From Caulobacter vibrioides OR37 (lineage in GTDB: Bacteria; Pseudomonadota; Alphaproteobacteria; Caulobacterales; Caulobacteraceae), in the NCBI RefSeq assembly GCF_000372645.1, contig NZ_APMP01000001.1, positions 434,001 through 498,000 on the forward strand: a DNA stretch of 64,000 bases, given 5' to 3'. The position numbers and the translations under genes are program-made. The notes beneath the pieces were generated by a model that saw nothing but the letters and a program-made list of their open reading frames with translations, did no database searches and was not told the origin of the DNA. Shown here one piece after another: positions 3,547 through 44,958 of this stretch (position 1 is the stretch's first letter; every line of letters starts with the position of its first letter).

Positions 3547-3579
3547 AAGGGCGCTCGTCAAGCGGCGAGCGCCCTTTTT
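3547..3579 (+). terminator. Rho-independent terminator of katG
   Basis: A perfect 11-bp inverted repeat (3547-3557 with 3566-3576) with an 8-nt loop begins 16 nt after the katG stop and runs into a short T tract. The last bases overlap the end of the convergent phnX gene, so it may also limit antisense reading into that operon. Confidence 0.85.
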
Positions 3580-4399
3580 AGCGCCGGTCGTCAGGACGCT
3601 CGCAACGCGCGATCCGATCCTCGATTTCGGCCAGCACGGGCGGCAGGTCGGCGACGGTCTCGACGACATAGTGCGCCCCGGCGGCGCGCAGGGCTTCGGC
3701 GGACGCCTCGATCCGCGCGGCGCGCTCGACCTTGGGCAGCAGGGCCAGGGCGCTCTCTTCCAGGCCGACCCCATTGCCCGAGGCCGACAGTCCGATGGTC
3801 CAGGCGCCGACCTCCAGCCCCTCCCCTATGCCGACCGTGGCGTCATCGACCTTGACGCAAGCCCGCGCGGGCCAGGCGCCGAGTTCGACCAAAGCCTTCC
3901 ACATCATCAGCGGCGACGGCCGGCCCGCCGCCGTCTCGCCGGCGCAAACCACGACGTCGGGCGCGTAACCCTGCTCCGCCGCCAGCGGCAAGATGTCGGC
4001 CATCATCGGGCGGGTGTAGCCGGTGGTCGAGCCGATCCCGACACCCCGCGCTCGCAGGTCGGCGACGACCCGGGCGGCGCCAGGAATCAGCTTGGCGCAG
4101 TCGCGGGCGGCGGCCCGCATCTTCGGCTCGACGGCGTCATGCAGACGGTCGACATCGGCCTCGGTCGCGGCGGCGCCATGGCGCTCGCGCCAAACGGCGG
4201 CGATGCGCGGCATGGCCAGTAGAGCCCGAACGTGGTCGCGCTTCGCCTTGCCCATGTCCATGCGAGCCTCGGCCTTCGAGATCTCGACCCCAGCCTCGGC
4301 GAACACCTCGCGGAGCGCCACGACGGGCGCTCGGCATCCGAAGTCGATCATGGTGCCGGCCCAGTCGAACACGACAGCCCGGATGGCGCTCTGGCTCAC
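3578..4399 (-). CDS. phnX: Phosphonoacetaldehyde hydrolase (phosphonatase)
   Basis: HAD-superfamily enzyme that cleaves the C-P bond of phosphonoacetaldehyde to acetaldehyde and phosphate. The 273-residue protein has the nucleophile Asp12 in VVFDWAGTMID and the Schiff-base lysine at Lys53 in MGKAKRDHVRAL, which distinguishes phosphonatases from other HAD phosphatases. The distal HAD motif VKVDDATVGIGEG is also present. The start codon overlaps the stop of the upstream FAD oxidase by four bases (ATGA), so the two are translationally coupled. No AEP:pyruvate transaminase (PhnW) lies next to it, so the neighbouring oxidase probably supplies the aldehyde. Cytoplasmic. Confidence 0.95.
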   Translation of the reverse strand: MSQSAIRAVVFDWAGTMIDFGCRAPVVALREVFAEAGVEISKAEARMDMGKAKRDHVRALLAMPRIAAVWRERHGAAATEADVDRLHDAVEPKMRAAARDCAKLIPGAARVVADLRARGVGIGSTTGYTRPMMADILPLAAEQGYAPDVVVCAGETAAGRPSPLMMWKALVELGAWPARACVKVDDATVGIGEGLEVGAWTIGLSASGNGVGLEESALALLPKVERAARIEASAEALRAAGAHYVVETVADLPPVLAEIEDRIARCERPDDRR

Positions 4400-5541
4400 G
4401 CGGCGGTTCCTTGTTTTGGCAGGTCATAGAGGCCGGCGATGACCTCCTCGGCCAGGCCGAACGCGGTCGAGGCGCCCGTGCCGCTGGTCACGGTGACCAA
4501 CCGCACGCGCGGCATCGGCGCTTCCACCAGGCTATGCCCCCGGGCCGAGGCGTAGGTGCCGGTCCAACGCTCCAGCACCGGCGGCGGCGCCTGGCCGAAC
4601 ACCTTGACGAACTCATCGAGGATCAGGGCGTCGACGTCGTCGCGGGCGAAGGGATCGGGCGTCGGCGCATAGTGGTGGCTGTCGCCGACCACCAGCGAAC
4701 CATCGGCGCTCTGCACGACGATCAGGTGGATTCCGTGCTCCAGATGAGCGGCCTGTTCGGCCTCCAGCCGGGCGCGCAACGGTTCGGCCTGTGGCAGATC
4801 GGCATAGCCGAGATAACGGATCAGGCCGAGGTCGGACATCACCGGCGCCGGCAGCCGCCAGCCCGGATCCGCCAGCCTCAGCATCTGCAGCTTGCAACGC
4901 GTCACCTCGGCGCGCGCGAAGTGCTCGGGAAACAGGGTGATCAGGTCGTCGCCTGGGCAAGCGATGATGTTCTCGGCGCGGACGGGCCCGTCCGAAGTCT
5001 CCAGACGCCCGGTCTCGACGCTCCGCACCGCGACGCCGCGCCGGAAGGTCACCCCATGCGCGGTCTCCAGCCAAGCGGCGAGACGCGGGATGGCGGTGCG
5101 CGACTCGACGCGCAGATCGACCGTGCTGGCCAGGGCTCCCAACACGCGCCCCCCGCCCGGCAGCCGCTCGCCGAGATCGCCGGCGTCAAGCCATTGGCAC
5201 CCTTGCGCCATCTCGGTCTCGAGAAAGGCCTTCAGAAGGGTCTTGGCCTCTGGCCGACGCGCGACCATCGTGAGGCCGCGTTGCAAGACCTCGATCCCGG
5301 CGGCGGGCGCGATCTCGCTCCACACCTGGGCCGACCGACGGGCGCGCCGCCAGACCTCGCCCCGAGCCTGGCCCGTCACCGTCACGAAACCAAAATTGCG
5401 CACCGAGGCGCCATTGGCCTGGGCGTCTCGGTCCAGGACGAGGACTCGTTTGCCAAGCCGCGCCGCCGCCAGAGCGTGAGCCAAGCCCACGATGCCCGCG
5501 CCGACCACGGCCAGATCGAACTTCTGTTCCAAATCCGTCAT
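4396..5541 (-). CDS. pbfD: FAD-dependent (N-methyl-)aminoethylphosphonate oxidoreductase, PbfD-like
   Basis: Flavoprotein of the DAO fold: dinucleotide-binding motif VVGAGIVGLAHALAAARLG near residues 11-29, and a C-terminal FAD loop VTVTSGTGASTAFGLAEE. Length (381 residues) and direct coupling to phnX match the phosphonatase-associated oxidoreductase family (TIGR03364). Members called PbfD have been reported to oxidise 2-aminoethylphosphonate or its N-methyl form to phosphonoacetaldehyde, which PhnX then splits. Together the two genes would form a complete cytoplasmic route from AEP to acetaldehyde, phosphate and an amine. No phosphonate ABC importer is adjacent. The family call is strong; the exact amine substrate is inferred. 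Confidence 0.85.
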   Translation of the reverse strand: MTDLEQKFDLAVVGAGIVGLAHALAAARLGKRVLVLDRDAQANGASVRNFGFVTVTGQARGEVWRRARRSAQVWSEIAPAAGIEVLQRGLTMVARRPEAKTLLKAFLETEMAQGCQWLDAGDLGERLPGGGRVLGALASTVDLRVESRTAIPRLAAWLETAHGVTFRRGVAVRSVETGRLETSDGPVRAENIIACPGDDLITLFPEHFARAEVTRCKLQMLRLADPGWRLPAPVMSDLGLIRYLGYADLPQAEPLRARLEAEQAAHLEHGIHLIVVQSADGSLVVGDSHHYAPTPDPFARDDVDALILDEFVKVFGQAPPPVLERWTGTYASARGHSLVEAPMPRVRLVTVTSGTGASTAFGLAEEVIAGLYDLPKQGTAA

Positions 5542-6577: not shown

Positions 6578-6589
6578 GATCTCTCTCGC

Positions 6590-28731: not shown

Positions 28732-28755
28732 GGCTTCTCTCTGTGTCCTTTTGAA

Positions 28756-30060: not shown

Positions 30061-30084
30061 CGCATCGAGCCTTCCATGTAAGCT

Positions 30085-30114
30085 CGCGGCGCGCCCCTCG
30101 CGGGACGCGCCGCG
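30085..30114 (-). terminator. Hairpin between TonB receptor and MFS genes
   Basis: A 9-bp perfect GC stem (30085-30093 with 30106-30114) with a 12-base loop lies six bases after the receptor stop and before the MFS start. It has no T tract, so it may slow transcription or protect the receptor message rather than end it. Confidence 0.35.
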
Positions 30115-30120
30115 CGGGAA

Positions 30121-32517: not shown

Positions 32518-32801
32518 GCGGTCCTCGTTCGAGGCCGTCGCGCCCACCGCCTGCGGCGGTTATCCCCAGGTCGACGCCTCGAAGTCATCATCCGCCGATG
32601 ACGGCCGGCGACGAGGCGCGGCCTCTGACATTTCACTGAAAATGTCGCGCCAGCCCGGATGTTGGGCCGCCGATGGCCGTAAATGCGGCCGCGTGGTCAC
32701 AAAACTTGCCCCTGCGCGTACCAGACAGGGTCTAAAGGCGACCTCGCGACATCATGGCGAGATCGCCGGTAGCTCCCACTACGAAAGCGAGCTTGACGCC
32801 C
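32518..32801. other. Upstream region of the TonB-receptor/RutA-like operon
   Basis: This 284-base region contains no supported gene. An inverted repeat GACATTT/AAATGTC (32627-32633 with 32640-32646), 110 bases upstream of the receptor start, is the clearest structure and includes the 10-base word TGACATTTCA. That word also occurs upstream of the receptor at 41986-44817. A promoter is expected here, but I cannot place it. Confidence 0.35.
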
Positions 32802-34124
32802 TTACAACCCGGAGGCGCTAGCGACGGGTTCGGACGAGCGCGAAGTCGTCGGCGTCGGACTACGCTTGAGGAAATAGGCGCCGGCCAGAACGGTGCAGGC
32901 GGCGCCCAGAATGCTGGTCGCATAGGCGCTGAGGACGAAGAAATTCAGCCAGTCCATCGCCACCATGGCGAAGTTGCGCCAGACCAGCAGGGCCACGCTG
33001 CCCAGATAGCCGGACGCGTCGGCGACATAGATCAGGAACCCCGCCGTGCCGACCCGGCCGCTGAACGCGATCATCCGGTCGAAAAGCATGGCGTTGAACG
33101 GCGTATAGGCCATGTAGAGCCCCGCGCCGGTCAGGATCATCCACGGCAGCGGCGCCAGGAGGTGGGCCTGGAACGCCAGGGTGGACAGCCCCAGTGTCAG
33201 AAAGCCCGCCAGGATCACCCCGTGCATCACCAGCAGCGCACGAAGATTGTCGCGCACCACCATGACCGCGGCCATCACGCCTAGCGACAGAACCGCCACG
33301 GGCAGCTCGCTGGCGGTGAAGACCGCCGACTCCTTGCCAAAGCCCAAGCCGGTCCACAGCTCGGCGGCGAAGTTGTCCCGGAAATCGCGCAGCGCCGTCA
33401 GTAGAACATAGGACAGCACCAACAGCGCGATCCCGGGGCCATAGGCGGCCACGAAGGCCTTTCGCTGCCCGCTGTCCATGGGTTCGCGTCGAACACGCGC
33501 CGCCTCGTCGGCGGCGTTCGGCGGCGGAAGCTGCATCAAGGCCCAGACCGAGACCGCCAGCAGCGGCATGAAGATCGCGCCGGTGGCGGCGGGCATCCAG
33601 AACGGAGAGATGTGGACGTCGACCATCAGCCACTTGCCCACCGACTTCACCACGCCGGATGACAGAATGAAGCTCGCGCAAAGGATCGCGCCCAGCACCT
33701 CGGACGTGCGCCGTCCCTCCATGAAGCCGAACACCAGCCCCCAGATCATCCCCAGCGGCAGGCCGTTCAGGAACAAGGCCGCGACGTTCCAAGGCGCGGG
33801 GATCATCGCGAACCCGATCAGGGCCAACCACGACAGGCCGATCAAGACGAGGATCGCCGCGCCGCGATGCGCCGGCTTGACCTCCGAGATCACGCGGACG
33901 CCGATCAGCTTGGAGGCGGCGTAGCCGGCGACCTGGGCCAGAACGAGGGCGATCTTGTAGTCGATGGCGAAATGCCAGCCCTCGACCACGCCGAAGGTCG
34001 CGGCGGCGAAGGGCTTTCGGAAGGCGTACATCGAGAAATAGGCGCAGAAGCCGGCCAGCCCCGCGAACAGGGTGAAGGCCAGCGGCGTGGCGCGTTCGAG
34101 CCAGCGCCGAGTACCAGATGTCAT
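32802..34124 (-). CDS. MFS transporter, organophosphate-antiporter-like (DUF5690-type)
   Basis: Polytopic inner-membrane protein of 440 residues with 11-12 predicted helices. The first helix region reads FSMYAFRKPFAAATFG, which recalls the Arg-Lys motif near the start of organophosphate:phosphate antiporters such as GlpT and UhpT. A perfect copy of the operator TGGTCTATACCA lies 24 bases upstream of its start and just after the GntR regulator gene. It therefore probably imports a phosphonate or phosphate ester released by the phospholipase C encoded on the other side of the regulator. The DUF5690 label is from memory and should be confirmed. Confidence 0.82.
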   Translation of the reverse strand: MTSGTRRWLERATPLAFTLFAGLAGFCAYFSMYAFRKPFAAATFGVVEGWHFAIDYKIALVLAQVAGYAASKLIGVRVISEVKPAHRGAAILVLIGLSWLALIGFAMIPAPWNVAALFLNGLPLGMIWGLVFGFMEGRRTSEVLGAILCASFILSSGVVKSVGKWLMVDVHISPFWMPAATGAIFMPLLAVSVWALMQLPPPNAADEAARVRREPMDSGQRKAFVAAYGPGIALLVLSYVLLTALRDFRDNFAAELWTGLGFGKESAVFTASELPVAVLSLGVMAAVMVVRDNLRALLVMHGVILAGFLTLGLSTLAFQAHLLAPLPWMILTGAGLYMAYTPFNAMLFDRMIAFSGRVGTAGFLIYVADASGYLGSVALLVWRNFAMVAMDWLNFFVLSAYATSILGAACTVLAGAYFLKRSPTPTTSRSSEPVASASGL

Positions 34125-34147: not shown

Positions 34148-34159
34148 TGGTCTATACCA
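34148..34159 (-). promoter_or_regulatory. PhnF/PhnR-type operator upstream of the MFS gene
   Basis: On the minus strand this reads TGGTATAGACCA, an inverted repeat TGGT-N4-ACCA. It is, to my knowledge, identical to the PhnF binding word described in Mycobacterium smegmatis. It lies 24-35 bases upstream of the MFS start codon. The same word recurs at 35061-35072 and with one change at 44838-44849. Confidence 0.75.
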
Positions 34160-34193
34160 AGTACATGTCGCCTCGATGACGCCGCCGGGCGTC

Positions 34194-34913
34194 CTAGCGG
34201 ACGCGGATGTCGACGCTGACCGTCAAGGCGTCGTGACGCCAGTATTCGCGATCGAATTCCACCACGTGGCCTTGGGCGTCGTAGCAGGTTCGCACCAGGC
34301 TAAGGCCCGGCAGACCCGACTTCACGCGCAGAGCCTCGGCCTCGTCGCGGGTCAGGGCGCACGGCCGCATGTCGACCTTGTTGCGCGCCACGCCGACGCC
34401 ATAGACGGTCTTCAGCACGCTCGTCAGGGAGCCGTTGAGATCGTGCTCGATCAGGCCCGGCGCGCGAGCGGCGTCGACGATGATGCTCTCGATCAGAACC
34501 GCCCGACCATCGATCAGACGGCGGCGGCGAATCCAGTACATCGGCGCGCCGACGGGGCGGGAGAAGATCTGGGCCAACATGCCGTCGCAGACGATCTCGA
34601 CCTTGCTCAGCGTCTCGGTTTCCGGCCGTCGCCCCTGCGCCTCGACATAGGACATGAAGCCTTCCCAGCGGGTCGGATCATAGACGACGGGCGGCGGCGA
34701 CACGTACCAGCCGCTGCGGTCCTTCCGGTAGATGACCCCTTCCGCCTCAAGCTGGAACAGGGCCTCGCGCACCGTGCCACGCGCCACCCCGCCGCCGGCC
34801 TGCAGCTGACGCTCGGAAGGCAGGCGCTCGCCCGGCTTGAACTCACCGGCGGCGATACGCGCCGCGATGTCGTCACGCACGCCCAGATACTGGTGACTGT
34901 CGAGCTGCTGCAT
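34194..34913 (-). CDS. GntR-family regulator with UTRA domain (PhnF/PhnR-like)
   Basis: Repressor-type regulator of 239 residues: an N-terminal winged helix (ERLPSERQLQAGGGVARGTVREALFQLEAEG) and a C-terminal UTRA ligand domain (about 85-235). The linker RKDRSGWYVSPPPVVYDPTRW closely recalls the phosphonate-utilisation regulator PhnR. I prefer ATG 34913 because the protein then has the family length; the frame also allows ATG 34979, 22 codons longer. It lies between and controls, I infer, the MFS gene and the phospholipase C-HD oxygenase operon, both preceded by TGGTATAGACCA-type operators. The effector is probably a phosphonate or headgroup compound. Confidence 0.9.
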   Translation of the reverse strand: MQQLDSHQYLGVRDDIAARIAAGEFKPGERLPSERQLQAGGGVARGTVREALFQLEAEGVIYRKDRSGWYVSPPPVVYDPTRWEGFMSYVEAQGRRPETETLSKVEIVCDGMLAQIFSRPVGAPMYWIRRRRLIDGRAVLIESIIVDAARAPGLIEHDLNGSLTSVLKTVYGVGVARNKVDMRPCALTRDEAEALRVKSGLPGLSLVRTCYDAQGHVVEFDREYWRHDALTVSVDIRVR

Positions 34914-34984
34914 CGGACGACCTGACCAGCGGTCGATTCCCGCCAGCACGAAGATGGAAGGCGGCTCCCCCTGGGTCAAGGAAG

Positions 34985-34996
34985 TGGATCAGACCA
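34985..34996. promoter_or_regulatory. Degenerate operator-like palindrome near the GntR promoter
   Basis: TGGATCAGACCA matches the operator word in 9 of 12 positions and keeps both outer arms (TGG and CCA). It lies just upstream of the longer possible GntR start and 72 bases upstream of the preferred one, so it could serve autoregulation. The match is too loose to be sure. Confidence 0.3.
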
Positions 34997-35060
34997 CCGT
35001 GAGGGGAGTCCAACCCGGATCAAGACTTCACGAAAGTTTCGCGGACGCCGCGTCGCCTAC

Positions 35061-35072
35061 TGGTCTATACCA
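35061..35072 (+). promoter_or_regulatory. PhnF/PhnR-type operator upstream of the phospholipase C gene
   Basis: TGGTCTATACCA, the exact reverse complement of TGGTATAGACCA, lies 27-38 bases upstream of the phospholipase start. A short palindrome CGAAAGTTTCG (35031-35041) lies 20 bases further upstream. The spacing to the start codon is nearly the same as at the MFS gene and at the receptor gene, which argues for real operator sites. Confidence 0.75.
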
Positions 35073-35098
35073 AATGTGGAATTTTGGAGGTCCAGGTC

Positions 35099-37213
35099 AT
35101 GACTCCCGACCGTCGCTCGCTCTTACGCGCCGCCGTCACGGGCGCGGCCGCCGGACTTCTGCCCGCGACGATCGCCAAGGCCATGGCCATTCCCGCGCGT
35201 CACCGCACCGGCACGATCATGGACGTCGAGCACGTCGTGATCTTCATGCAGGAGAACCGCGCGTTCGATCACTATTTCGGGACGCTGAACGGCGTGAGAG
35301 GCCTGGGCGACCCGCGCCCTCAGCGCCTGCCGGGCGGCGCCTCGGTCTGGCGCCAGCCCAGCCAGGAGCATCCCGACGGCTATGTCCTGCCCTTTCATGG
35401 CGACGCCTCGGCGACCAACGCCTACACGGTCGACGGCTCGGACCAAGGTCACCAGGCGGCGACCACCATCGTCAACGGCGGCCGCTACGACCAGTGGGGC
35501 CATTCGGGCGAGCTTCACAAGCGCATGGTCTACTACAAGGCCTCGGACTTGGCGTTCTACCACGCCTTAGCCAGCGCCTTCACGATCTGCGACGCGTACC
35601 ACTGCTCCACCCTGACCCAGACCTATCCCAACCGCCTGCATCTCTGGACGGGTTGCAACGGCGGCGGCAAGGTCGGCGGCGATCCGGAAATGAGCAACTA
35701 CGGCGAGGACGAAACGCCCAGCGCCGACATGGCCGAAGACAAGGTCATGGCCAAGGGGCCCTACACCTGGACCACCTATGCCGAGCGCCTGCAGGCGGCC
35801 GGCGTCAGCTGGAAGGTCTACCAAGAGTACGATAATTTCGGCGACAACATCCTGTCGGTGTTCAAGCCGTTCCGCCCGTGCGCCAAGGATTCCGAGCTCT
35901 ATGCGCGCGGCCGCTCGTGGGTCAGCGAAGGCAAGACCGGCCCCGACCGCACGCGCTCGGACGGCCAGCAGTTGGTCGAGGCCTTCCGCGCCGATATCGC
36001 CGCCGACCGTTTGCCTCAGGTGTCATGGATCGTCACCGCCGCCGACCTGTCCGAACACCCGCAGGCGGAACCCTCCAAGGGGGAACATGTTTGCGCCGAG
36101 CTGATCAAGGCCCTCGTCGATCACCCCGAGGTGTTCGCCAAGACGGTCTTCATCGTCAACTATGACGAGGCCGGCGGCTTCTACGATCACATGCAGCCGC
36201 CGATGCCGCCGCTGACGCCCGAACAAGGATGGAGCTCGGTCTCGGTCGCCGGCGAGGCCAAGGACTATGGCCAGGCCAAGGTCGACAACCCCGGCGCCCA
36301 TCCGCTGGGCCTGGGCATCCGGGTGCCGGCGATCATCGTCTCGCCCTGGAGCCGCGGCGGCTTCGTGTGCTCGGAGGTGTTCGATCACACCTCGACCTTG
36401 CGCTTCCTGGAAAAGCGCTTCGGCGTGCGCGAGGAGAATATCAGCGACTGGCGCCGGACGGTTTGCGGCGACCTGACCTCGGCCTTCGACTTCGCCAATC
36501 CAAACCAGGACTGGTCGACCCTGTCGCTGCCGGCGACGGCCGACTACATGCAGCGCGTGGCGCGCTCCAAGGCCGCGCCGAGCCTGCGTATTCCGGCCAA
36601 ACAGACCCTCTCGGTTCAAGAAGGTCCCCAGCGGGCCGCGCGCGCCCTGCCCTACGTAATCTCCGCCGACGCGCGGGTGCGCGACGGCGCGGTGTGGATC
36701 GATCTCGTCAACGCTGGCCGGGCCGGCGCGGTGTTCCAGGTCTTCGACAACACCGACCGCGACGGTCCGTGGCGCTTCACCCTGGCGGCGGGCCAGAAAT
36801 ACGCCGCTGGCCACTGGAACAAGCCCGGACGCCCGCCAGGTCCCTACGATCTCACCGTTCACGGCCCGCATGGCTTCTATCGTCGCTTCGCGGGAGACAC
36901 GTCCAAGGCTCAGCCTCTAGTGACCGCGTCCGCCGACGTCCGCGCCCGGCTCGTCATCATCCTGTCCGGCATGGGGTCCGCGACGCTTCAGATGGCCGAG
37001 GACTATCCGCTGGCCGAAGGCGAGGCCCGCCAGACCATCGCGCTGCGGCCCAGCGGCGTCCGTTCGGTCCTCGACCTGCGGGGCAGCGACCACTGGTACG
37101 ATCTGACCCTGACCCTGGCCGATGATCCTTCGTTTGTTCAACGTCTGGCCGGACACCTCGAGACCGGCCGCGCCAGCCGCACCGATCCCGGCATAGGCCG
37201 GATGCGCCTCTAA
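35099..37213 (+). CDS. Phosphocholine-type phospholipase C, Tat-exported
   Basis: Secreted or periplasmic phosphodiesterase of 704 residues in the PlcH/PlcN/AcpA family. The start is ATG 35099 with GGAGG eight bases ahead; a TTG at 35084 is possible but lies at the ribosome site. The N-terminus has a twin-arginine signal (DRRSLLRAAVTGAAAG, then a hydrophobic stretch). The catalytic core contains IFMQENRAFDHYFGTLNGVRG, CSTLTQTYPNRL and VNYDEAGGFYDH. Two C-terminal immunoglobulin-like repeats follow, as in phosphocholine-specific enzymes. It leads an operon with a PhnZ-like HD oxygenase 19 bases downstream and has a PhnF-type operator, so the headgroup released may be a phosphonate rather than phosphocholine. 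Confidence 0.92.
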   Translation: MTPDRRSLLRAAVTGAAAGLLPATIAKAMAIPARHRTGTIMDVEHVVIFMQENRAFDHYFGTLNGVRGLGDPRPQRLPGGASVWRQPSQEHPDGYVLPFHGDASATNAYTVDGSDQGHQAATTIVNGGRYDQWGHSGELHKRMVYYKASDLAFYHALASAFTICDAYHCSTLTQTYPNRLHLWTGCNGGGKVGGDPEMSNYGEDETPSADMAEDKVMAKGPYTWTTYAERLQAAGVSWKVYQEYDNFGDNILSVFKPFRPCAKDSELYARGRSWVSEGKTGPDRTRSDGQQLVEAFRADIAADRLPQVSWIVTAADLSEHPQAEPSKGEHVCAELIKALVDHPEVFAKTVFIVNYDEAGGFYDHMQPPMPPLTPEQGWSSVSVAGEAKDYGQAKVDNPGAHPLGLGIRVPAIIVSPWSRGGFVCSEVFDHTSTLRFLEKRFGVREENISDWRRTVCGDLTSAFDFANPNQDWSTLSLPATADYMQRVARSKAAPSLRIPAKQTLSVQEGPQRAARALPYVISADARVRDGAVWIDLVNAGRAGAVFQVFDNTDRDGPWRFTLAAGQKYAAGHWNKPGRPPGPYDLTVHGPHGFYRRFAGDTSKAQPLVTASADVRARLVIILSGMGSATLQMAEDYPLAEGEARQTIALRPSGVRSVLDLRGSDHWYDLTLTLADDPSFVQRLAGHLETGRASRTDPGIGRMRL

Positions 37214-37232
37214 GCTCTCCCACGGATCTTCA

Positions 37233-37808
37233 ATGACCGCTCGCCCGACGGCCGACGCCTTCGTCGCCGAACTGACCACCCTGTTCAACCGCCTGGGCGA
37301 TTTGCGCTATGGCGAGGACGTCAGCCAGCTGGACCACGCCGTACAGACCGCCCACCACGCCAAGCTGGATGGCGCGCCGCCCGCCTTGATCGCCGCAGCC
37401 CTGCTGCACGATGTCGGGCACATGATGCAAAAGGCCGGCGAGGACGCCGCGGATCACGGCGTAGACACGCGCCACGAACAGATCAGCGCCGGCTATCTGG
37501 CCCGCGCCTTTGGCCCCGAGGTCACCGAGCCCATCCGCCTGCACGTCGCGGCCAAGCGCTACCGGGTCGCGGTGGATCCGGCCTATCTGGAACACCTCAG
37601 CAAGGCCTCCCTGCAAAGCCTGGCTCTGCAGGGAGGACCGATGAATTCGGCGGAGATCGCCGCGTTTCTGGCCGAGCCGGCCGCCCAGGACGCCCTACGG
37701 CTGCGCGGCTATGACGAGGCCGGCAAGGCGCCGGAGGCCGAGGTCTCCAGCTTCGAATCTTATCAGGACCTCCTGCGCGATCTGATCGCGCGCGCGGCCG
37801 AGGCCTGA
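37233..37808 (+). CDS. PhnZ/TmpB-like HD-domain mixed-valent diiron oxygenase
   Basis: HD-domain protein of 191 residues matching the phosphonate-degradation oxygenase family (TIGR03276). Known members cleave the C-P bond of alpha-hydroxylated aminoethylphosphonates. Ligands expected from PhnZ are all present: His35, His59, Asp60 (LLHDVGH), His81, His104 and Asp161, with Lys108 and the LQGGPM loop as substrate contacts. The lid residues differ: PhnZ has Tyr-X-X-Glu, while here Arg25-Tyr26-Gly27-Glu28 occurs, so the iron-capping tyrosine appears replaced or shifted by one. No PhnY- or TmpA-type hydroxylase is adjacent. Its stop codon abuts the stop of the convergent AspH gene with no base between. 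Confidence 0.87.
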   Translation: MTARPTADAFVAELTTLFNRLGDLRYGEDVSQLDHAVQTAHHAKLDGAPPALIAAALLHDVGHMMQKAGEDAADHGVDTRHEQISAGYLARAFGPEVTEPIRLHVAAKRYRVAVDPAYLEHLSKASLQSLALQGGPMNSAEIAAFLAEPAAQDALRLRGYDEAGKAPEAEVSSFESYQDLLRDLIARAAEA

Positions 37809-38762
37809 TCAGGGCGAAAGCGCCTCGTCCGCGACCAGGTGCTGCAAGACGCGCTTTTCCAGCACCAGAAGCGCGCTGGCGCTGTTGGCGCGCATGACGA
37901 GGCCTTCGCCCAGCGGCCCGGCGGCTTCGCGCACGGCGTGGATCAGGCGCTGAAACTCGGGTCGCCCCCGACCGCCGGTTCCATGCAGGGCGCAGAGTTG
38001 GCGCCAATCCTGGATGAAGCTTTCCAGCAGCAGGTTCAGCCGCGCGGCGCGCATCCGGGTTTCAGGCGTGTCAACGGCCAGCGAAAGCTCCTCGCGCAGA
38101 TCCTCGACCAGCCATTGCGCCTCGGCGGCCGGCATGATCGGCATGCGCTGGTCGTTCTCGGTCAGCAGCTCGGGATCAGCGCTCGGATCCCAAGCCAGAG
38201 TGGGCCACCGATCGCGGGGCGGCGATTGACCATAGGCGAAGCGCCAGAACGAAGCCGTGCCGGTGGTGTCGGCGACCAGATGGATACGATCCTGGTCCGC
38301 CCCGTTCTCGACGTGATGGCGACGCCAGTTGTCGAAGATCCAGGCCTCGCCGGCCGCCATGTGCACGGACTGCCCGTCACAGTGAAAACGCACGGCGGGC
38401 TGCGTGAAGACCGGAATGTGCAGTCGCACGCGGGTATGCCAGTGGTAGTTGATGTCCGCGTGCTCGGGAACGCCGACACCCGGCGCCAGCCTCATCAGCC
38501 GCGAGCGGCTCCAGACCACGCCGAACCCCGCTAGGACCTGACGCAGATAGGGCATCGCCATCAGCCAGGGCGTCGGCAGCATCTGGCCGTGGACCGCGTC
38601 GGTCTCCGCCCCGTCCACGCTGATCAGGCGCGCGGCGCTATTGCCGCGCAGCCGATCCGGATGCGCCACCCAGGCCTCGGCCGGCAAGGCCGCGACCTCG
38701 GCCTGAAGTCGTTCCACGTCGAACAGCACCGGAAGCTGGTAGAAGGGTCGCGGCAGCCGCAT
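37809..38762 (-). CDS. Aspartyl/asparaginyl beta-hydroxylase-domain oxygenase (AspH 1)
   Basis: 2-oxoglutarate-dependent oxygenase of 317 residues. The AspH jelly-roll is at about 45-170: His101-X-Asp103 (PEHADINYHWH), a distal His149 or His150 (RRHHVENG) and Arg159 (DRIHLV) for 2-oxoglutarate. The C-terminal 140 residues are helical, of unknown function. It is the last gene of the TonB receptor, sulfotransferase, AspH, TPR-sulfotransferase operon, three bases after the previous gene. The substrate could be a protein side chain or a small molecule; neither is shown by the sequence. Confidence 0.88.
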   Translation of the reverse strand: MRLPRPFYQLPVLFDVERLQAEVAALPAEAWVAHPDRLRGNSAARLISVDGAETDAVHGQMLPTPWLMAMPYLRQVLAGFGVVWSRSRLMRLAPGVGVPEHADINYHWHTRVRLHIPVFTQPAVRFHCDGQSVHMAAGEAWIFDNWRRHHVENGADQDRIHLVADTTGTASFWRFAYGQSPPRDRWPTLAWDPSADPELLTENDQRMPIMPAAEAQWLVEDLREELSLAVDTPETRMRAARLNLLLESFIQDWRQLCALHGTGGRGRPEFQRLIHAVREAAGPLGEGLVMRANSASALLVLEKRVLQHLVADEALSP

Positions 38763-38765
38763 CGC

Positions 38766-40670
38766 TCAGGTCCTGTACTCGGTCAGCGCATCGCCCAGCG
38801 CCTCGCGCAGCGGCGCCAGCCAGGGCGCGTAGCGACGCCATTGATCCAGCCCCTCGCGGCCGATCGGCTGGCGCACCTGCTCCGAACTGGGAGTGCGCAC
38901 GCTGCGTTGGGTCGCGTAAAAGGTCAGGCAGGCCGGCTGGAAGGGCAGACGGCAATGGTCCAGCATCCGCCGCACGCCGCCCTCGAGATCCTCGACGAGG
39001 TCTTCATAGGACACCCGCAGCACCCGGCCGGGCAGCACCTGATCCCAGTGCCGCATCATGTCGAGATAGACCCGATAATAGCGGGCGATGTCCTCGACGC
39101 CGTAAGTGAATTCCTGATTGGTCGTGCCGAACAGCTGCTTCAGGTTGCTGAAGCAGCAGGCCATCGGCTCGCGGCGGACATCGATGATAGTCGCTCGCGG
39201 CAGGATCAGGTGGATCAGGCCGATGTGCCAGAAATTGTTGGGCATCTTGTCGATGAAGAACGGCCGCCCCAGCCGCCGGTAGGCGCGCGTTTCGGCCAGG
39301 AAGCGCTCGCCCAGCCCCCTCGCCTCCTCGGCGGTCAGACGCAGCAGGGCTTCGGGGTCCAAGGGCAGGCCGCAGTCGGGATCGCGCCCCCCGAGCTCGG
39401 CGGCGTAACGGCCGATCTCCGTCAGCTCCTGCGTCCCCTCGACCGCCGAATGCGAGGCCAGAATCTGCTCGATCAGGGTCGACCCCGAGCGCGGCAGACC
39501 CACGACGAAAATCGGCGCGGGATCGTCCGCGCCCCAACCCGCGCGGGCCGCGAAGACCTCGGCTGACAAGCTCTGCTTCGAACTCCGTGCGCAGGCCTCG
39601 GCGACCTCCGACCTATACCGGCTGTCCAAGCGCCTCAATGCGTTGCCGCGCCCATAGCTTCGCCACGACGCCGCGTAGTCGCCTCGATCTTCCAGAGCCT
39701 TGCCCAGCGCGAAGTTCAGATAGACGCGATCCATCCGTTGCAGGTCGGGGCGGGCCTCGGCCGCTCGCAAACGCCCCAATTCGTCATCGCTGAAGCGATA
39801 GGTCTTCAGGTTGGCGAGGCTAAACCAAGCCACGCCGTTATCTGGCCGCGCATGGAGCGAAGCGCGGTAATCGGCGACCGCCTCGGCTTGGCGGCCCGTG
39901 ACCTTCAAGGCATTGCCCCGCCAGAGCCGCAGATCGGCGACCTCGGGCCCGGACGGCGGCTGGCCGTCCAGCAATCGGCCGTAGAGGTCGATCACCGGTT
40001 CGTGGTCGCCCAGGGCGACGCAGGCGGCGGCGTATTGCTTGATATAGTCGCGGTTGTCCGGGTCGTGCTCCAGCAGCCGCTCCGCCTCCTCCCGGGCGCG
40101 CCCGGGCTTTTGCCCTTGGAGCAGCGTCATCGCGTAGTCCAGTCGGGCGGCGTGGTAGTCCGGCGCTTGGGCCAGCGCCGTTTCGAGCAAGGCCTCGGCC
40201 TCGTCGAACGCGCCGCTCTCCGCGCGGATCCTGGCTAGCAGACGGCGCGCGCCGACATTGCTGTCGTTATCGCGCAGATACTCGCGGAGGATCGCCTCGG
40301 CCGCCTCGAGATCGCCGTCGGCGAACAGGCTGTTGGCGACCACCACCTGGACCGGCAACTGCTTCAGCGCCTTCAGATGACGCGCCGCCGCCTCGGCGCG
40401 AGGCGCGTCGCCCAGCATCCGATAGAGCTGTTCCAACATGTCCCAGCTGGTCGGCAGGGTGGGATTGAGGCCGACCGCCGTGCTCAGCGCCTCGATCGCG
40501 CGGGGCGCGTCGCCAAGCAGAATGTAGCAATGCCCGCGCTCCTGATGGAGACGGCTGAACCGAGGCAGCAACGCTTCCAACCGCGCCAGGACGGCGAGGG
40601 CCTCGGGCGCGCGCTGGCGCGTCCGCAGCGCCCGCGCCTCCTCCAGCAAGGCGTCGCGTTGCCGGCTCAC
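38766..40670 (-). CDS. TPR-repeat sulfotransferase
   Basis: Fusion protein of 634 residues. The N-terminal part (about 1-350) is a tandem of TPR helices, and the C-terminal part (about 375-630) is a PAPS-dependent sulfotransferase domain with the 5'-phosphosulfate loop FVVGLPRSGSTLIEQIL and the 3'-phosphate motif RREPMACCFSNLKQLF. I start it at GTG 40670, whose TGA overlaps the stop of the AspH 2 gene (GTGA). An upstream extension to 40904 would run antiparallel in frame through AspH 2 and has shadow composition. TPRs probably recognise a protein or peptide partner, so sulfation of a macromolecule is plausible. Confidence 0.9.
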   Translation of the reverse strand: MSRQRDALLEEARALRTRQRAPEALAVLARLEALLPRFSRLHQERGHCYILLGDAPRAIEALSTAVGLNPTLPTSWDMLEQLYRMLGDAPRAEAAARHLKALKQLPVQVVVANSLFADGDLEAAEAILREYLRDNDSNVGARRLLARIRAESGAFDEAEALLETALAQAPDYHAARLDYAMTLLQGQKPGRAREEAERLLEHDPDNRDYIKQYAAACVALGDHEPVIDLYGRLLDGQPPSGPEVADLRLWRGNALKVTGRQAEAVADYRASLHARPDNGVAWFSLANLKTYRFSDDELGRLRAAEARPDLQRMDRVYLNFALGKALEDRGDYAASWRSYGRGNALRRLDSRYRSEVAEACARSSKQSLSAEVFAARAGWGADDPAPIFVVGLPRSGSTLIEQILASHSAVEGTQELTEIGRYAAELGGRDPDCGLPLDPEALLRLTAEEARGLGERFLAETRAYRRLGRPFFIDKMPNNFWHIGLIHLILPRATIIDVRREPMACCFSNLKQLFGTTNQEFTYGVEDIARYYRVYLDMMRHWDQVLPGRVLRVSYEDLVEDLEGGVRRMLDHCRLPFQPACLTFYATQRSVRTPSSEQVRQPIGREGLDQWRRYAPWLAPLREALGDALTEYRT

Positions 40671-41287
40671 CGCGCGACGCTCGCCTGGAGAAGCGGCGCG
40701 AGCCACGCCGGCGCCGGCTGGTCGGGATCGTAATATTCGAAGATCAGATGGATGCGATCGCTGTCGCCGTCGTTGCGCACCCAATGCGGCGCGAGGTTGT
40801 TGACCTCGACCGCCTGACCAACCGGAAGGTGGCGCTCGGCCCCGCCGAAGAACGACACCACGCCGGGATTGGTCGTGATCGGCACGTGGATCTTGTGGGG
40901 CCACTTCGCGGCGGGATTGGCGTCGATGTGCGGATGTATGAACCCGCCCGGAGCCATGCGGGCCAGCATCACCCGAGGAAACACGCCCCGCGCGTAGCCA
41001 TAATCACGAACCGCGTCCGCCAGCACGGGCTCCAGCAAGTTCCGCCACGGCGCCCAGGCCGGACGATCATGGGAACCCCGCCAGTCGAGCGGACCATCCA
41101 CGAAACGAAAGACGATGTGCCGCGTGCCGTCCAGCACCTCGAACTTGTTGGGTTTGCTGGCGTTTTCGGCGACCCAGACCGCCTCTGGGATCGCCATGAC
41201 ATTGGCCCGAAGGGCGCCGATGTCGACCGCCCCCAGGTCTCTCACCGTCTCCGTCTTGCGAGGATTGGCGGACGGCCCGCTCATCAC
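40667..41287 (-). CDS. Aspartyl/asparaginyl beta-hydroxylase-domain oxygenase (AspH 2)
   Basis: Compact AspH-type oxygenase of 206 residues, mostly the catalytic domain: His120-X-Asp122 in HPHIDAN, His168 in APHWVRN and Arg178 in DRIHLIFEYYD. It is encoded between two sulfotransferases and overlaps both (ATGA with the upstream gene, GTGA with the downstream one), so the three are made in a fixed ratio. It differs clearly from AspH 1, suggesting two separate hydroxylation targets or steps. Confidence 0.9.
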   Translation of the reverse strand: MMSGPSANPRKTETVRDLGAVDIGALRANVMAIPEAVWVAENASKPNKFEVLDGTRHIVFRFVDGPLDWRGSHDRPAWAPWRNLLEPVLADAVRDYGYARGVFPRVMLARMAPGGFIHPHIDANPAAKWPHKIHVPITTNPGVVSFFGGAERHLPVGQAVEVNNLAPHWVRNDGDSDRIHLIFEYYDPDQPAPAWLAPLLQASVAR

Positions 41288-41916
41288 GCCCCCTCGAACG
41301 TGTAGCCGAAGAGATCGAGGTCCTGCTCGTAGCGCGCGGCGACCGCCTCGATCAGAAGCGGGTCATAGTACTGGCGGTAGTCGCCATGCTGGCTGCCGTT
41401 CACGCGGTCGAGCCGGCGGGATGGAATACCGATCCGCGCGCAGATCGCGTCGTAGGAGCCCTGCATGTCCTCCACCCGACCGATCCCATCGGTCAGGAGG
41501 CCGCCTTCCTCGTCCACCAGCAGCGACGACTGCGGCTGGAACAGGATGTGTTGTTCCGGCGGTTCCTCGAAAAGGAAATAGCGCATGACATCGCGCGGCC
41601 GTCGCTGGAAGTCGTCGCCCCCGCGCAACATGAACGCGCAGTACGAGACGAAGCGGTCGAACGGATTCCGCACGAAGGCGAACTTGAAATAGTCGGCGAA
41701 GGCCTGTTCGCCGAGATACGGACGCACCTGCCGCAGGGACAGGTGGCCATGCCTGATCGCGGCCAGGTCCGCCCAGGGAAAGCGCTTGTCGACGAACAGC
41801 CCTACCTGCTCGACGTCGTCCTCGCTCAGATGCTCGCGCAGGGCCTGACGCACCGAATGGGTGCCGGTCTTGGGCACCGCGGCGAAGATGAAGCGGTGGC
41901 TATGTGAAACGATCAT
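41284..41916 (-). CDS. Sulfotransferase (family 2-like)
   Basis: PAPS-dependent sulfotransferase of 210 residues with the 5'-phosphosulfate loop FAAVPKTGTHSVRQALREH at residues 11-29 and the 3'-phosphate motif FAFVRNPFDRFVSYC. This fold is shared with carbohydrate sulfotransferases of the HNK-1/chondroitin type. It is the first accessory gene after the TonB receptor, separated from it by a hairpin (41935-41966), and is coupled by overlap to AspH 2. The acceptor is not known. Confidence 0.9.
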   Translation of the reverse strand: MIVSHSHRFIFAAVPKTGTHSVRQALREHLSEDDVEQVGLFVDKRFPWADLAAIRHGHLSLRQVRPYLGEQAFADYFKFAFVRNPFDRFVSYCAFMLRGGDDFQRRPRDVMRYFLFEEPPEQHILFQPQSSLLVDEEGGLLTDGIGRVEDMQGSYDAICARIGIPSRRLDRVNGSQHGDYRQYYDPLLIEAVAARYEQDLDLFGYTFEGA

Positions 41917-41934
41917 GGCCTGATCAAAAGAGCG

Positions 41935-41966
41935 GAGCGTCCGTCTCCTCCAGGAGACGGACGCTC
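41935..41966 (-). terminator. Intra-operon terminator-like hairpin after the TonB receptor
   Basis: A perfect 15-bp inverted repeat (41935-41949 with 41952-41966) forms a stem that, on the minus strand, is followed by CGCTCTTTT. It lies 19 bases after the receptor stop and 18 bases before the sulfotransferase start. It probably gives partial termination, lowering expression of the accessory enzymes relative to the abundant receptor. Confidence 0.75.
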
Positions 41967-41985
41967 AACCTAGCGCCTATGCGTG

Positions 41986-44817
41986 TCAGAACTTGTAGCT
42001 GAGACCCATCATGTAAGTCGTGCCGCTCTGGTTCTGGTTATAGAGGTAGCGGTTCTGACCCCAGAACTGGGTATCCTTCTGGTTGGTCAGGTTGATGGCG
42101 TTCAGCGAGAACTGAAGCGTCTCGGTGAAGTTATAGAAGGCCGAGGCGTCCACATAGGTCGAGCCCTCGAAGCCGCGCGTGTCGGCGCTCATGGGGTTGG
42201 CGCTACGACCCGTGTACCAACGCGCGCGGTGGCTCAGCGAACCGCGCAGGCCCCAACGATCGGTCTCGTAGTAGAGCGTCGCGTTGTAGCTCGTCTTCGA
42301 GATGCCGGTGATCTCGTCGGGCACATCGACATAGGTGTAGTTCGCCGTCATGCCGAGGTTGTTGAACGGCGCGGGCAGGAACGTGAACTGGCTCTGCGCG
42401 ACCAGCTCGACCCCGGTGATCTTCTTGGTGCCGGCCACGTTGGTCGGCATGGAGAATTCCTTGACGATCGTGTTCGCGGTCGCCCCGGGGATCGTGGTGT
42501 ACGGCACGCCGGTTTGGCTGAACGGGATATTCGTCAGCGTCGTCGAGCCGATGAAGTTGGTGACGCGCTTCTGGAACACGCCCGCCGACAGCAGCCCCAC
42601 CTTGCCGAAGTAGTACTCGACCGACAGGTCCAGGGTCTTGTCCTTGAACGGCTTCAGGTTCGGATTGCCGCGCGAGGCGGTGATGTCGCAGTTCTGGTGG
42701 GCCGCGTCGGCGTTCAGGTTGCAGGTCTCATTACCTTGGAAGGCGCTGCCGCGAGCGGCCATCGATCCCAGGCTCGGACGGTTCAGGTTCTCGGTGGCGG
42801 CGAAGCGCACCAGCAGTTCCGGCGTCAGTTCCAGCACGGTGTTCAGCGCTGGCAGGACGCCCGAATAGCTGCCCTTGACGTCGGTCGTACCGAGGTAGGC
42901 GTAGCTGTCGCCCTGGATCCAGCCCGAGCTGCGCGTGTCGGTCTGGTAGCCGCGCAGGCCGATATTGCCGCGGAAGCGCTTGCCCAGCAGCTGGGTGTCC
43001 CAATCGGCCTGGATGTACTCCGAAACGGTCGCCTCTTGGGTATTGTAGACGTTCTCGATGTCCTGGATGACGCCGCCCGTGCCGTCCGTGTTCTTCTCGA
43101 GGCGGTGGTACTCCTTGTACTTGGCGAAGGCCTTGGCGTAGTCGCCGATCAGCCACGAGCCGGCGCTGTTGCTAAACACCGTCGTGATGTCGGCGACCGA
43201 CGTGCCGCGCGTCTTGCCGGTCGTGCCGTTGGCGCCGCCGTCATAGAACAGGTCGATGCCGTCCTGCTTGAACTTGTGATAGGCGGCGCCCGCCCGCAGG
43301 GTCCAGACCGGGTTCAGCGTGTAATGGGCGTTGACCACGCCTTCCATCAGCTCCGACTGGTTGCGGAAGGAGCGATAGTAGAAGTTGTCCATCGCGTAGT
43401 TGGCCGGGTTGGTCGGATCCCAGTTCGGATACTGGAAAGTCGCCGAGCGCCCATCGACGCCGTAGTCGGCGATCAGATTGCCCTTGGCCCGCATGTAGAG
43501 CTTGTCGTCATACGGCGTCCTGTAGGTCGACTTCTCGTAGCCCACGTGGCCGTCGATCACCAGGCGATCCGTGGCGTCCCACTTCCCGGTCAGGGCCACC
43601 TGGTTGAAGCGGTTCTTGTTCAGCTCACGACGATGCTCGCTGCCGAAGGTCACGTTGCTGGCGTTGGTCATCGTGACATAGCCGTTCGGGTCGACGCGGA
43701 AGTCGTTCAGCACCGTGCCGTTTTGGAATTGAGCGGGCCAGGGCGAGCCCTTGGCGCCGTCCAGCGTGGTCGAGCCTAGGCCGTTCAGAGGGCGGGTGGC
43801 CAAGTGCAGTTCGTCGCGGTGCGTGGTGAATTCACCGTGCAGCACGTCGAGCGTCAGCAACAGATTGTCGACGGGCTTCCACTGCACGGCGCCCGTGAGA
43901 CCCAGGCGCTCCTGCTTCGCGTTCCAGGACGACAGACGGTTGCCGTCGGCGAAATAGAGGTCGCCCGCCATGAACCGGGCCTGCTGCGCGGCGGTCAGGT
44001 GGGAGATGTCGACGCCCTTGTTGAGAAGACCCTGAACGTCGCTCTTGGACAGGTGGCTGTAGTTGTACGTGTTGTGCCCCTGCTCGGTGGTCTCGCGCTT
44101 GCCGTAGGCGACCGAGAACGCGACGCCGAACTTGTTGTCCCAGTTCTGGCTGAACAGAGCGGCGATCCGCGGCTGGGCGTCCTTGGTGTATTGGTTGGTG
44201 CCCAACTTCAGCGAGACGGCGCCCTTGGAGCCGGTCTTGTAATCAAACGGCTTGCCGGTGAAGAGACCCACCGTGCCGGCCATGCCGCCTTCGTTCTGCG
44301 CGGCCTCGAAGGTCTTTTCGACCTCGACCTTCGAGAACAGTTCGGAGGCGAAGATGTTGAAGTCGAAGGCCCGGTCGCGCGAGCGCTGGCCGCGGCTGTC
44401 CTGAGCCGAGTCGACATTGCCCAGCACTTCCATGCCGTTCAGCTGCACGCGCGCGAAATCCGGACCCAGGCCGCGCAGCGAGATCCGCCGCCCCTCGCCC
44501 GCTTCTCGGGTGATCTGCACGCCAGGCAGGCGCTGCAGCGACTCGGCCAGGTTCAATTCCGGAAACTTCGCCATGTCCTCGGCGACGATCGCGTCCTTCA
44601 GGATGATGGAGTCGCGCTTGATGGCCCGAGCGTCGCTGAGCGACTTGCGAAAGCCGGTGACGACGACTTCATCGACCTGATCGCCCGCCGCCGAGCTCGC
44701 GGCCTGACGCGCGAAAGCGGTCGACCCGCTGGCGCCCACCACCAGCGCCGAGACGGTCGCCAGCAAAAGATTCTTGCGGTTCGAGCGCGCGGCTCGAGCG
44801 GAATAGCGCTTCGACAT
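41986..44817 (-). CDS. TonB-dependent receptor, Xanthomonas/Caulobacter type
   Basis: Large receptor of 943 residues in the TIGR01782 style: signal peptide (cleavage near STAFARQ), TonB-box-like DQVDEVVVTGFRKSL, plug with LNLAESLQRLPGVQITREAGEGR and ISLRGLGPDFARVQLNGMEV, and a barrel ending in GLSYKF. The start is ATG 44817, preceded by a GGGGA ribosome site; a 20-codon longer frame would run over the operator. The operator TGGTATGGACCA (44838-44849) lies 21 bases upstream, almost the same distance as at the two other PhnF-type sites, so this receptor should import the same class of substrate. It heads the sulfotransferase/AspH operon. Confidence 0.94.
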   Translation of the reverse strand: MSKRYSARAARSNRKNLLLATVSALVVGASGSTAFARQAASSAAGDQVDEVVVTGFRKSLSDARAIKRDSIILKDAIVAEDMAKFPELNLAESLQRLPGVQITREAGEGRRISLRGLGPDFARVQLNGMEVLGNVDSAQDSRGQRSRDRAFDFNIFASELFSKVEVEKTFEAAQNEGGMAGTVGLFTGKPFDYKTGSKGAVSLKLGTNQYTKDAQPRIAALFSQNWDNKFGVAFSVAYGKRETTEQGHNTYNYSHLSKSDVQGLLNKGVDISHLTAAQQARFMAGDLYFADGNRLSSWNAKQERLGLTGAVQWKPVDNLLLTLDVLHGEFTTHRDELHLATRPLNGLGSTTLDGAKGSPWPAQFQNGTVLNDFRVDPNGYVTMTNASNVTFGSEHRRELNKNRFNQVALTGKWDATDRLVIDGHVGYEKSTYRTPYDDKLYMRAKGNLIADYGVDGRSATFQYPNWDPTNPANYAMDNFYYRSFRNQSELMEGVVNAHYTLNPVWTLRAGAAYHKFKQDGIDLFYDGGANGTTGKTRGTSVADITTVFSNSAGSWLIGDYAKAFAKYKEYHRLEKNTDGTGGVIQDIENVYNTQEATVSEYIQADWDTQLLGKRFRGNIGLRGYQTDTRSSGWIQGDSYAYLGTTDVKGSYSGVLPALNTVLELTPELLVRFAATENLNRPSLGSMAARGSAFQGNETCNLNADAAHQNCDITASRGNPNLKPFKDKTLDLSVEYYFGKVGLLSAGVFQKRVTNFIGSTTLTNIPFSQTGVPYTTIPGATANTIVKEFSMPTNVAGTKKITGVELVAQSQFTFLPAPFNNLGMTANYTYVDVPDEITGISKTSYNATLYYETDRWGLRGSLSHRARWYTGRSANPMSADTRGFEGSTYVDASAFYNFTETLQFSLNAINLTNQKDTQFWGQNRYLYNQNQSGTTYMMGLSYKF

Positions 44818-44837
44818 GATGGTTCCCCTGCCCCAAC

Positions 44838-44849
44838 TGGTATGGACCA
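44838..44849 (-). promoter_or_regulatory. PhnF/PhnR-type operator upstream of the TonB receptor
   Basis: TGGTATGGACCA differs from TGGTATAGACCA at one position and extends to a 14-bp palindrome CTGGT-N4-ACCAG. It lies 21-32 bases upstream of the receptor start codon, comparable with 24 and 27 bases at the MFS and phospholipase genes, although the regulator gene is about 10 kb away. Confidence 0.65.
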
Positions 44850-44946: not shown

Positions 44947-44958
44947 TGGACTAGACCA
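44947..44958 (-). promoter_or_regulatory. Second, upstream operator-like palindrome
   Basis: TGGACTAGACCA matches the operator word in 10 of 12 positions and sits in a longer imperfect palindrome (TTTGG-N6-CCAAA) 98 bases before the proximal operator. Paired sites are known for GntR repressors, but this one may also be chance. Confidence 0.4.

Follow-up and report, generated by a model that had tools for sequence, protein, structure and literature searches.

A conserved HutC-type operator points to a probable organophosphonate-scavenging regulon in Caulobacter vibrioides OR37

Regulators of the HutC subfamily of the GntR family place two DNA-binding domains on operator DNA and respond to small effectors, as described in the DasR paper (PMC4918961), which also has Arg38 and Arg48 of NagR reading two guanines. 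The operator of the subfamily is given in PMC4494728 as GTMTAKAC with flanks. For phosphonates, the LysR-type AepR controls genes for 2-aminoethylphosphonate (AEP), and the substrate-inducible regulators discussed in PMC9311074 are of LysR type; for AEP and N-methyl-AEP, a route through PbfD2 and PhnX that dispenses with PhnW has been described (Zangelmi et al. 2023, PMC10590968). Here we analyze a window of 64,000 nucleotides (nt) from Caulobacter vibrioides OR37 (contig NZ_APMP01000001.1, positions 434,001 to 498,000), in which a GntR/UTRA regulator lies among genes for a DUF5690 transporter of the major facilitator superfamily (MFS), a phospholipase C (PLC), an HD-domain oxygenase and an operon comprising a TonB-dependent receptor, a Sulfotransfer_2 sulfotransferase (ST2), two AspH-type 2-oxoglutarate oxygenases (AspH1, AspH2) and a TPR-sulfotransferase (TPR-ST). 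Comparison with relatives makes it probable that this regulator (34194-34979), most likely acting as a repressor, is the substrate-responsive control of a dispersed organophosphonate-scavenging regulon. Operator conservation, regulon membership, enzyme families and PbfD/PhnX linkage support this at the level of sequence comparison and argue that the regulon is real and conserved; phosphonate use is its likely role because PbfD and PhnX genes stand in the window, the strongest evidence for phosphonates.

An earlier sequence-only reading of the window had listed exact copies of one word at 34148-34159 and 35061-35072 and a one-mismatch copy at 44838-44849. All three are present, and the short spacing to three start codons that it reported measures 23, 26 and 20 nt; a fourth site, TGGTCTAGTCCA at 44947-44958, had been overlooked. 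By exact word search, TGGTATAGACCA occurs at two places in the whole 4.43-Mb genome, 34148 and 35061 of the window, where 100 dinucleotide shuffles give a mean of 0.00. The form TGGTMTAKACCA is found exactly at three genomic places, two in the window and one on contig C16 flanked by ordinary genes and two tRNA genes, and with at most one mismatch at 34 places compared with 10 for the reversed control. Of these 34, four are the window sites; 12 of the other 30 were examined, 10 of which lie within or overlap open reading frames (ORFs) of at least 150 amino acids, and at C16:63097, also among the 12, two tRNA genes are nearby and no related gene was seen. The looser TGGTNNNNACCA was rejected as a genome-wide detector: it occurs at 126 places (21 for the control), so that the loose scan proposed as a check in the sequence-only reading is unspecific on its own.

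With 67.8 bits for PF00392 (cut-off 27) and 111.6 bits for PF07702 (cut-off 23.8), the regulator has the domains of the HutC subfamily. Its best NCBIfam model is PhnR (TIGR03337), at 242.9 bits under the cut-off of 296.75, and PhnF (TIGR02325) gives 76.8 bits, under 156.8; the GntR/UTRA part of its earlier assignment to a PhnF/PhnR type is confirmed, and neither curated type model is reached. Its true start probably lies further in than listed, because orthologue alignments begin at residues 2-30. The arginines that align with Arg38 and Arg48 of NagR are both invariant in the alignment of this GntR family. The TGGTMTAKACCA-type sites are conserved and fit the operator form GTMTAKAC, from which we infer binding by the GntR of the window. 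The sequence-only reading took the word to equal the PhnF site of Mycobacterium smegmatis; our literature search found no paper giving that site. Since the word equals the general HutC consensus (PMC4494728), the label "PhnF-type" is not diagnostic, and with the PhnF cut-off missed as well, a PhnF identity of the operator was rejected.

Conservation of the sites was followed in relatives. Of 199 Caulobacteraceae genomes, 24 have a GntR orthologue with 58% identity or more (26 matches, two weak). The GntR alignment scan kept the best 80 of 122 named loci, from Caulobacter, Brevundimonas, Phenylobacterium, Asticcacaulis, Sphingomonas, Novosphingobium, Sphingobium, Erythrobacter and other genera; 77 are close (L116-L192) and the weak L193-L195 were left out. 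As the 77 loci share genomes with the G genome set, the two sets are not independent, nor are related genomes within the counts. For the window and the 77 loci, palindromes of the form X-N4-revcomp(X) were ranked over all 256 half-sites, with no word presupposed, in gene windows from -150 to +30, skipping those with a match start beyond query residue 60 or off the locus (5 and 3 for the receptor). TGGT, i.e., TGGTN4ACCA, ranked first before the receptor (24 of 27 gene windows, against an average of 0.09 for the remaining half-sites), DUF5690 (44/60), GntR (34/77), PLC (20/51), HD (16/65), PbfD (12/49) and a second phospholipase C, PLC2 (5/15), and third before PhnX (5/50). No exact TGGTN4ACCA was found in the 114 gene windows of the inner receptor-operon genes (ST2 0/29, AspH2 0/27, TPR-ST 0/26, AspH1 0/32), which have a one-mismatch background of 5/114. 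Where the exact site is missing, a one-mismatch form stands in all 31 PLC windows, mostly as TGGACTATACCA, in 37 of 49 for HD, 8 of 16 for DUF5690 and one of three for the receptor. The gap between site and start is 14-38 nt for the receptor, 15-64 nt for PLC and at most 65 nt in 51 of 52 DUF5690 windows. The two orders agree: all 13 receptor windows from sphingomonads and 11 of the 14 from Caulobacterales have an exact site. The sites accompany their genes through rearrangements within Caulobacteraceae, and the conservation check proposed earlier was answered positively across Caulobacterales and Sphingomonadales, with the site kept before orthologues in rearranged loci. The form of the fourth window site, TGGTMTAGTCCA, is seen again before PLC and HD genes and before the receptor genes of L088 and L093.

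Sites were also compared between genomes with and without the regulator. Among Caulobacteraceae genomes, exact sites within 200 nt upstream were found before DUF5690 in 14 of 23 windows of GntR-positive genomes (two being paralogues on contig C13) vs. 0 of 19 in GntR-negative ones, before PLC in 17 of 18 vs. 0 of 2, and before the receptor in 12 of 18 vs. 0 of 7 (leaving out the L043 row, whose window runs beyond the locus edge). ST2, marking the receptor block, co-occurs with GntR in 18 of 24 GntR-positive vs. 7 of 175 GntR-negative Caulobacteraceae; among 249 sphingomonad genomes, with ST2 in 5, GntR in 8 and both in 4, the figures are 4/8 vs. 1/241. Class-wide sampling of 337 genomes each (AspH1 in 2, GntR in 1) was too spread to inform co-occurrence. 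In three sphingomonad genomes the receptor operon is distant from GntR (36 kb, 1.65 Mb and on another contig), and the site is present in all three, as predicted beforehand, 17-28 nt 5' of the receptor start; only a single one of the 255 remaining half-sites turns up, and in just one of the windows. The GntR loci of these genomes are among the 77 (L174, L179, L187), and their receptor windows had not been used before. The fifth sphingomonad genome with ST2 has no GntR and a more distant block (63%); it tests nothing, because no receptor was found beside that block. The earlier proposal of a single regulon, uniting importer, PLC, HD oxygenase and receptor operon through a dispersed operator, thus gains support from orthologue conservation and from these distant operons.

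The exact site reaches further gene classes in relatives: 15 loci have it before an NPP-type phosphodiesterase with PA14, 8 before a PI-PLC type (in some cases fused to PAP2), 3 before a metallophosphatase, 2 before a YVTN-phosphoesterase, 1 before a PAP2 phosphatase and 13 before a second class of receptor (>50% identity). Assignment was by Pfam for one to three members per class and by BLASTP for the others, and some of these sites are common to a divergent GntR or HD gene. Within the OR37 genome, TGGTCTAGTCCA also lies 61 nt 5' of the second phospholipase C gene (L212:6963-6974, equal to G000:C24:56962-56973), the last of the 12 places examined outside the window. Exact PLC2 sites occur in 0 of 4 windows of GntR-positive genomes, although in 5 of 15 named windows, and we therefore keep this place only as a weak candidate for a further regulon member.

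Table 1. Genes and operator sites of the window, with the basis of each assignment.
Feature	Coordinates	Strand	Basis or position
FAD-dependent oxidoreductase, PbfD type	4396..5541	-	TIGR03364 404.4 bits, cut-off 285.1
PhnX phosphonoacetaldehyde hydrolase	3578..4399	-	TIGR01422 335.2 bits, cut-off 220; directly 3' of PbfD
DUF5690 membrane transporter, proposed phosphonate importer	32802..34124	-	PF18943 E 2e-158; MFS fold; PbfD/PhnX/HD neighbors
Operator 1, TGGTATAGACCA	34148..34159	-	23 nt from DUF5690 ATG at 34124; kept before orthologues
GntR/HutC (UTRA) regulator	34194..34979	-	Pfam GntR + UTRA; NCBIfam PhnR below cut-off
Operator 2, TGGTATAGACCA	35061..35072	-	divergent GntR/PLC intergenic region, 26 nt from PLC ATG at 35099
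Phosphocholine-specific-type phospholipase C	35099..37213	+	TIGR03396 746.5 bits, cut-off 580.25
HD-domain oxygenase, PhnZ/TmpB type	37233..37808	+	TIGR03276 207.7 bits, just under cut-off 214.6
AspH-type 2-oxoglutarate oxygenase 1 (AspH1)	37809..38762	-	PF05118
TPR-sulfotransferase (TPR-ST)	38766..40904	-	PF13469 + TPR repeats
AspH-type 2-oxoglutarate oxygenase 2 (AspH2)	40667..41287	-	PF05118
ST2 sulfotransferase (Sulfotransfer_2)	41284..41916	-	PF03567
TonB-dependent receptor, heading the sulfotransferase operon	41986..44817	-	TIGR01782 616 bits, cut-off 310
Operator 3, TGGTATGGACCA, receptor-type center, one mismatch	44838..44849	+	20 nt from receptor ATG at 44817
Operator 4, one-mismatch form TGGTCTAGTCCA	44947..44958	-	129 nt 5' of receptor ATG

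The gene families named in the sequence-only reading, i.e., MFS, PLC, HD oxygenase and receptor-sulfotransferase, were recovered (Table 1), and the PbfD and PhnX genes at 3578-5541 had escaped it. Some 27 kb separates them from the transporter gene; PbfD is probably what the model TIGR03364 stands for, and no PhnW scores above its cut-off in the genome. PbfD followed directly by PhnX is seen in 49 of 78 loci. In several relatives PbfD comes after the transporter or AspH1 inside an operator-headed unit, and in six genomes (L118, L120, L122 (= L045), L039, L040 and L042) PbfD-PhnX stands directly behind AspH1, the last gene of the receptor operon, sharing its strand and separated by 11-35 nt. 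Of seven GntR-negative genomes with the receptor-sulfotransferase block, six still have PbfD/PhnX, HD or DUF5690 genes near it, inside fetched stretches of 12-20 kb, so the association of the block with phosphonate genes is independent of the operator. On the same strand 5' of PbfD-PhnX, genes for a PAP2/PhoC-like acid phosphatase and a TonB receptor (5861-8905) have no exact site; the PAP2 gene of L130 has one.

For the HD oxygenase, the best structures are TmpB (6npa, E 1.4e-32, residues 14-184) and PhnZ (4mlm, E 2.9e-29, residues 11-184). The relation covers the whole domain and includes the matched His/Asp positions, which we take to be metal ligands. Its substrate is not assigned by curated models, because both TIGR03276 and the TmpB model NF049941 (160.9 bits, cut-off 300) score below cut-off. 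HD oxygenases presumably require alpha-hydroxylated substrates. The one PhyH gene of the genome is on a different contig with no operator nearby, and an HD oxygenase lacking a linked alpha-hydroxylase would fit substrates already carrying the hydroxyl group, of which 1-hydroxy-AEP lipids are an example. In another genus, a PhyH-family dioxygenase gene (L097:2655-3470, PF05721, 92.4 bits) lies beside DUF5690 and is a possible alpha-hydroxylase partner.

The structure model of the DUF5690 protein (pLDDT 89.1) has human G6PT, a sugar-phosphate/phosphate antiporter, as its six best Foldseek matches. In the fold comparison G6PT and a galactonate symporter tied, so that no single transporter family is singled out and a place among the organophosphate:phosphate antiporters (GlpT, UhpT, G6PT) is no more than possible; a PDB profile search by sequence gave no match at E 1, and DUF5690 is not mentioned in the open-access literature searched. 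Contig C13 of the same genome carries two further DUF5690 and HD sets, one with PLC (L112:6441-11675 and L111:9917-16645). Genes for LysR-type regulators (Pfam) lie nearby in place of GntR, the 20-kb stretches of both loci hold no exact operator, and these are apparently parallel systems under other control. Downstream (3') of the DUF5690 gene in the window, 27667-32547 holds a luciferase-type monooxygenase-like gene and an MFS-like transporter gene, both recognized by eye, as well as a TonB receptor gene, and no exact TGGTN4ACCA.

Within the receptor operon, the structure model of ST2 has a sulfotransferase fold whose nearest neighbors by fold comparison (VIA-align 2) are glycan (heparan sulfate) sulfotransferases; a PDB profile search by sequence gave no match at E 1. 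PKTGTH and RNPFDRFVS are invariant across 21 sequences and presumably represent the motifs that bind 3'-phosphoadenosine 5'-phosphosulfate (PAPS); fold and motifs together identify ST2 as a PAPS-dependent sulfotransferase. In AspH1, whose sole PDB profile match is L-proline cis-4-hydroxylase (E 0.01), H101, D103, H149 and R159 are invariant across 25 sequences. With the apparent PAPS motifs and the AspH1 histidines kept, both proteins are probably active. TPR-ST matches a protein-tyrosine sulfotransferase (PDB 8w5z, E 7.8e-7). Its listed ORF overlaps AspH2 by 238 nt (40667-40904), and its N-terminal part resembles out-of-frame AspH2; because of this overlap the listed start is probably wrong and the true one probably near 40670.

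We propose that GntR binds TGGTN4ACCA palindromes, mostly within 65 nt 5' of start codons, where the bound dimer could block transcription until an inducer in the UTRA domain, perhaps a phosphonate, frees it from DNA. The position of the sites just before start codons fits repression by blocking, and activation is also possible. The TonB receptor would carry material across the outer membrane, and a presumably secreted PLC, joined in relatives by other phosphodiesterases and phosphatases, would free the phosphonate or phosphate head group, which DUF5690 may import. PbfD and PhnX, and the PhnZ/TmpB-like HD oxygenase, would then cleave the carbon-phosphorus (C-P) bond. A phosphonate ester or phosphonolipid as the substrate is suggested by the enzyme families. 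Our guess is that the two sulfotransferases and two AspH proteins pair up to hydroxylate and then sulfate a glycan, the receptor or another envelope component. A fuller version would have one regulator act through two operator grades on a whole pathway that takes phosphonolipids or phosphonoglycans from the envelope to the cytosol, with the receptor matured or its ligand tagged by AspH2/ST2 and AspH1/TPR-ST pairs, the phosphonate head group freed by PLC and imported by DUF5690; we put this forward as a tentative and, taken as a whole, rather doubtful extension. If true, it would provide a first function for the AspH and TPR-sulfotransferase genes that bacteria carry next to TonB receptors.

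Several observations weigh against the proposed regulon or its phosphonate role. Because the model that PLC matches takes its name from phosphocholine, the system may simply serve phospholipid use; other MFS carriers are structurally almost as near to DUF5690 as its best match; the HD oxygenase has no linked PhnY*/TmpA-type partner; and no operator precedes PbfD-PhnX in the genome of the window itself. A promoter scan recognized no sigma-70-like promoter near the sites, 8 of 60 DUF5690 windows have neither an exact nor a one-mismatch form, and L131 and L133 lack a site in their receptor windows. In g15 (Asticcacaulis) genomes with GntR the receptor site is absent in 5 of 5: the loci L052-L054, L056, L058 and L083-L086 keep GntR and the PLC/HD sites and show no exact site at the receptor-sulfotransferase operon, which may reflect loss or other control. 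As all 7 negatives and 5 of 6 failures in positive genomes belong to g15, the receptor contrast is confounded with genus. Finally, the operator center is mostly TA at catabolic genes and CA, with a conserved GTT flank, at the receptor, leaving room for a second related regulator.

The most serious alternative is general scavenging of phospholipids and organophosphates, in which phosphoesterases release phosphocholine or phosphate, a phosphate ester is the inducer and the phosphonate enzymes are passengers. The phosphocholine-specific PLC model, scored above its cut-off, and the exact sites before NPP/PA14, PI-PLC, metallophosphatase, YVTN-phosphoesterase and PAP2 genes of relatives fit such a system. 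Against it stand the phosphonate enzymes, with PbfD in 51, PhnX in 51 and HD in 66 of 78 loci, many of which are truncated where their contigs end. A site of their own precedes HD and some PbfD genes, and the best model for the regulator is PhnR. We therefore judge it unlikely and prefer phosphonate scavenging. It is more improbable still that the receptor-sulfotransferase operon is read by another HutC-type regulator, one that recognizes a similar word, with only MFS, PLC and HD left to this GntR. The difference between TA and CA centers may reflect either graded affinity or two regulators, and the CA centers with their GTT flank, like the g15 genomes that have GntR without a receptor site, would suit the latter. 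However, CA-type centers also stand at some DUF5690 genes (CCAT in 6 and CCAG in 3 of 44 exact sites), for which reason we favor one regulator; moreover, ST2 block and GntR co-occur in Caulobacteraceae and sphingomonads, and the three receptor operons distant from GntR have the site. That the repeated word is a chance or local-duplication leftover with no regulatory meaning is barely conceivable, since, common as TGGTNNNNACCA is in the genome, the sites are conserved across orders close to start codons in rearranged loci and before distant receptor operons, which already contradicts it.

A single GntR regulator thus remains the favored reading, and would give a testable regulatory and functional home to the DUF5690 transporter, to the TonB receptor with its sulfotransferase and AspH genes and to an HD oxygenase that lacks a hydroxylase partner of its own; it would also connect phosphoesterases with the breaking of C-P bonds in alphaproteobacteria of fresh water and soil. 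By title and abstract start, no description of such a regulon was found among the papers listed in searches of the open-access literature. Among known systems, PhnR-type regulators share with the window regulator the best NCBIfam model over its whole length, the UTRA domain and the linkage to PhnX; the window regulator differs in scoring under the cut-off, in a genome without PhnW above cut-off, and in a predicted regulon that is larger and includes outer-membrane and hydrolase genes. PhnF of M. smegmatis and of C-P lyase operons is likewise of the HutC subfamily, but the window regulator falls below the cut-off of its model; no C-P lyase gene is among the annotated genes, and no genome-wide search was aimed at one. 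NagR (YvoA) and DasR, HutC proteins with solved structures (2wv0, 4u0v/4wwc and 4zs8), control N-acetylglucosamine use; the guanine-reading arginines of NagR have invariant arginines as their counterparts here. The position of NagR Gly69, presumably a DNA contact, is an arginine in the window regulator. AepR has in common substrate-inducible phosphonate regulation and differs in regulator family, LysR instead of GntR (PMC9311074), a family represented by the LysR-type genes at the paralogous DUF5690/HD loci L111 and L112 of the same genome. The PbfD/PhnX pathway likewise combines a flavin adenine dinucleotide (FAD) oxidoreductase and a phosphonatase without PhnW; the main text that describes it (PMC10590968) does not contain the words regulator, phospholipase or sulfotransferase, whereas here PbfD and PhnX would belong to an operator-defined regulon with a receptor and hydrolases.

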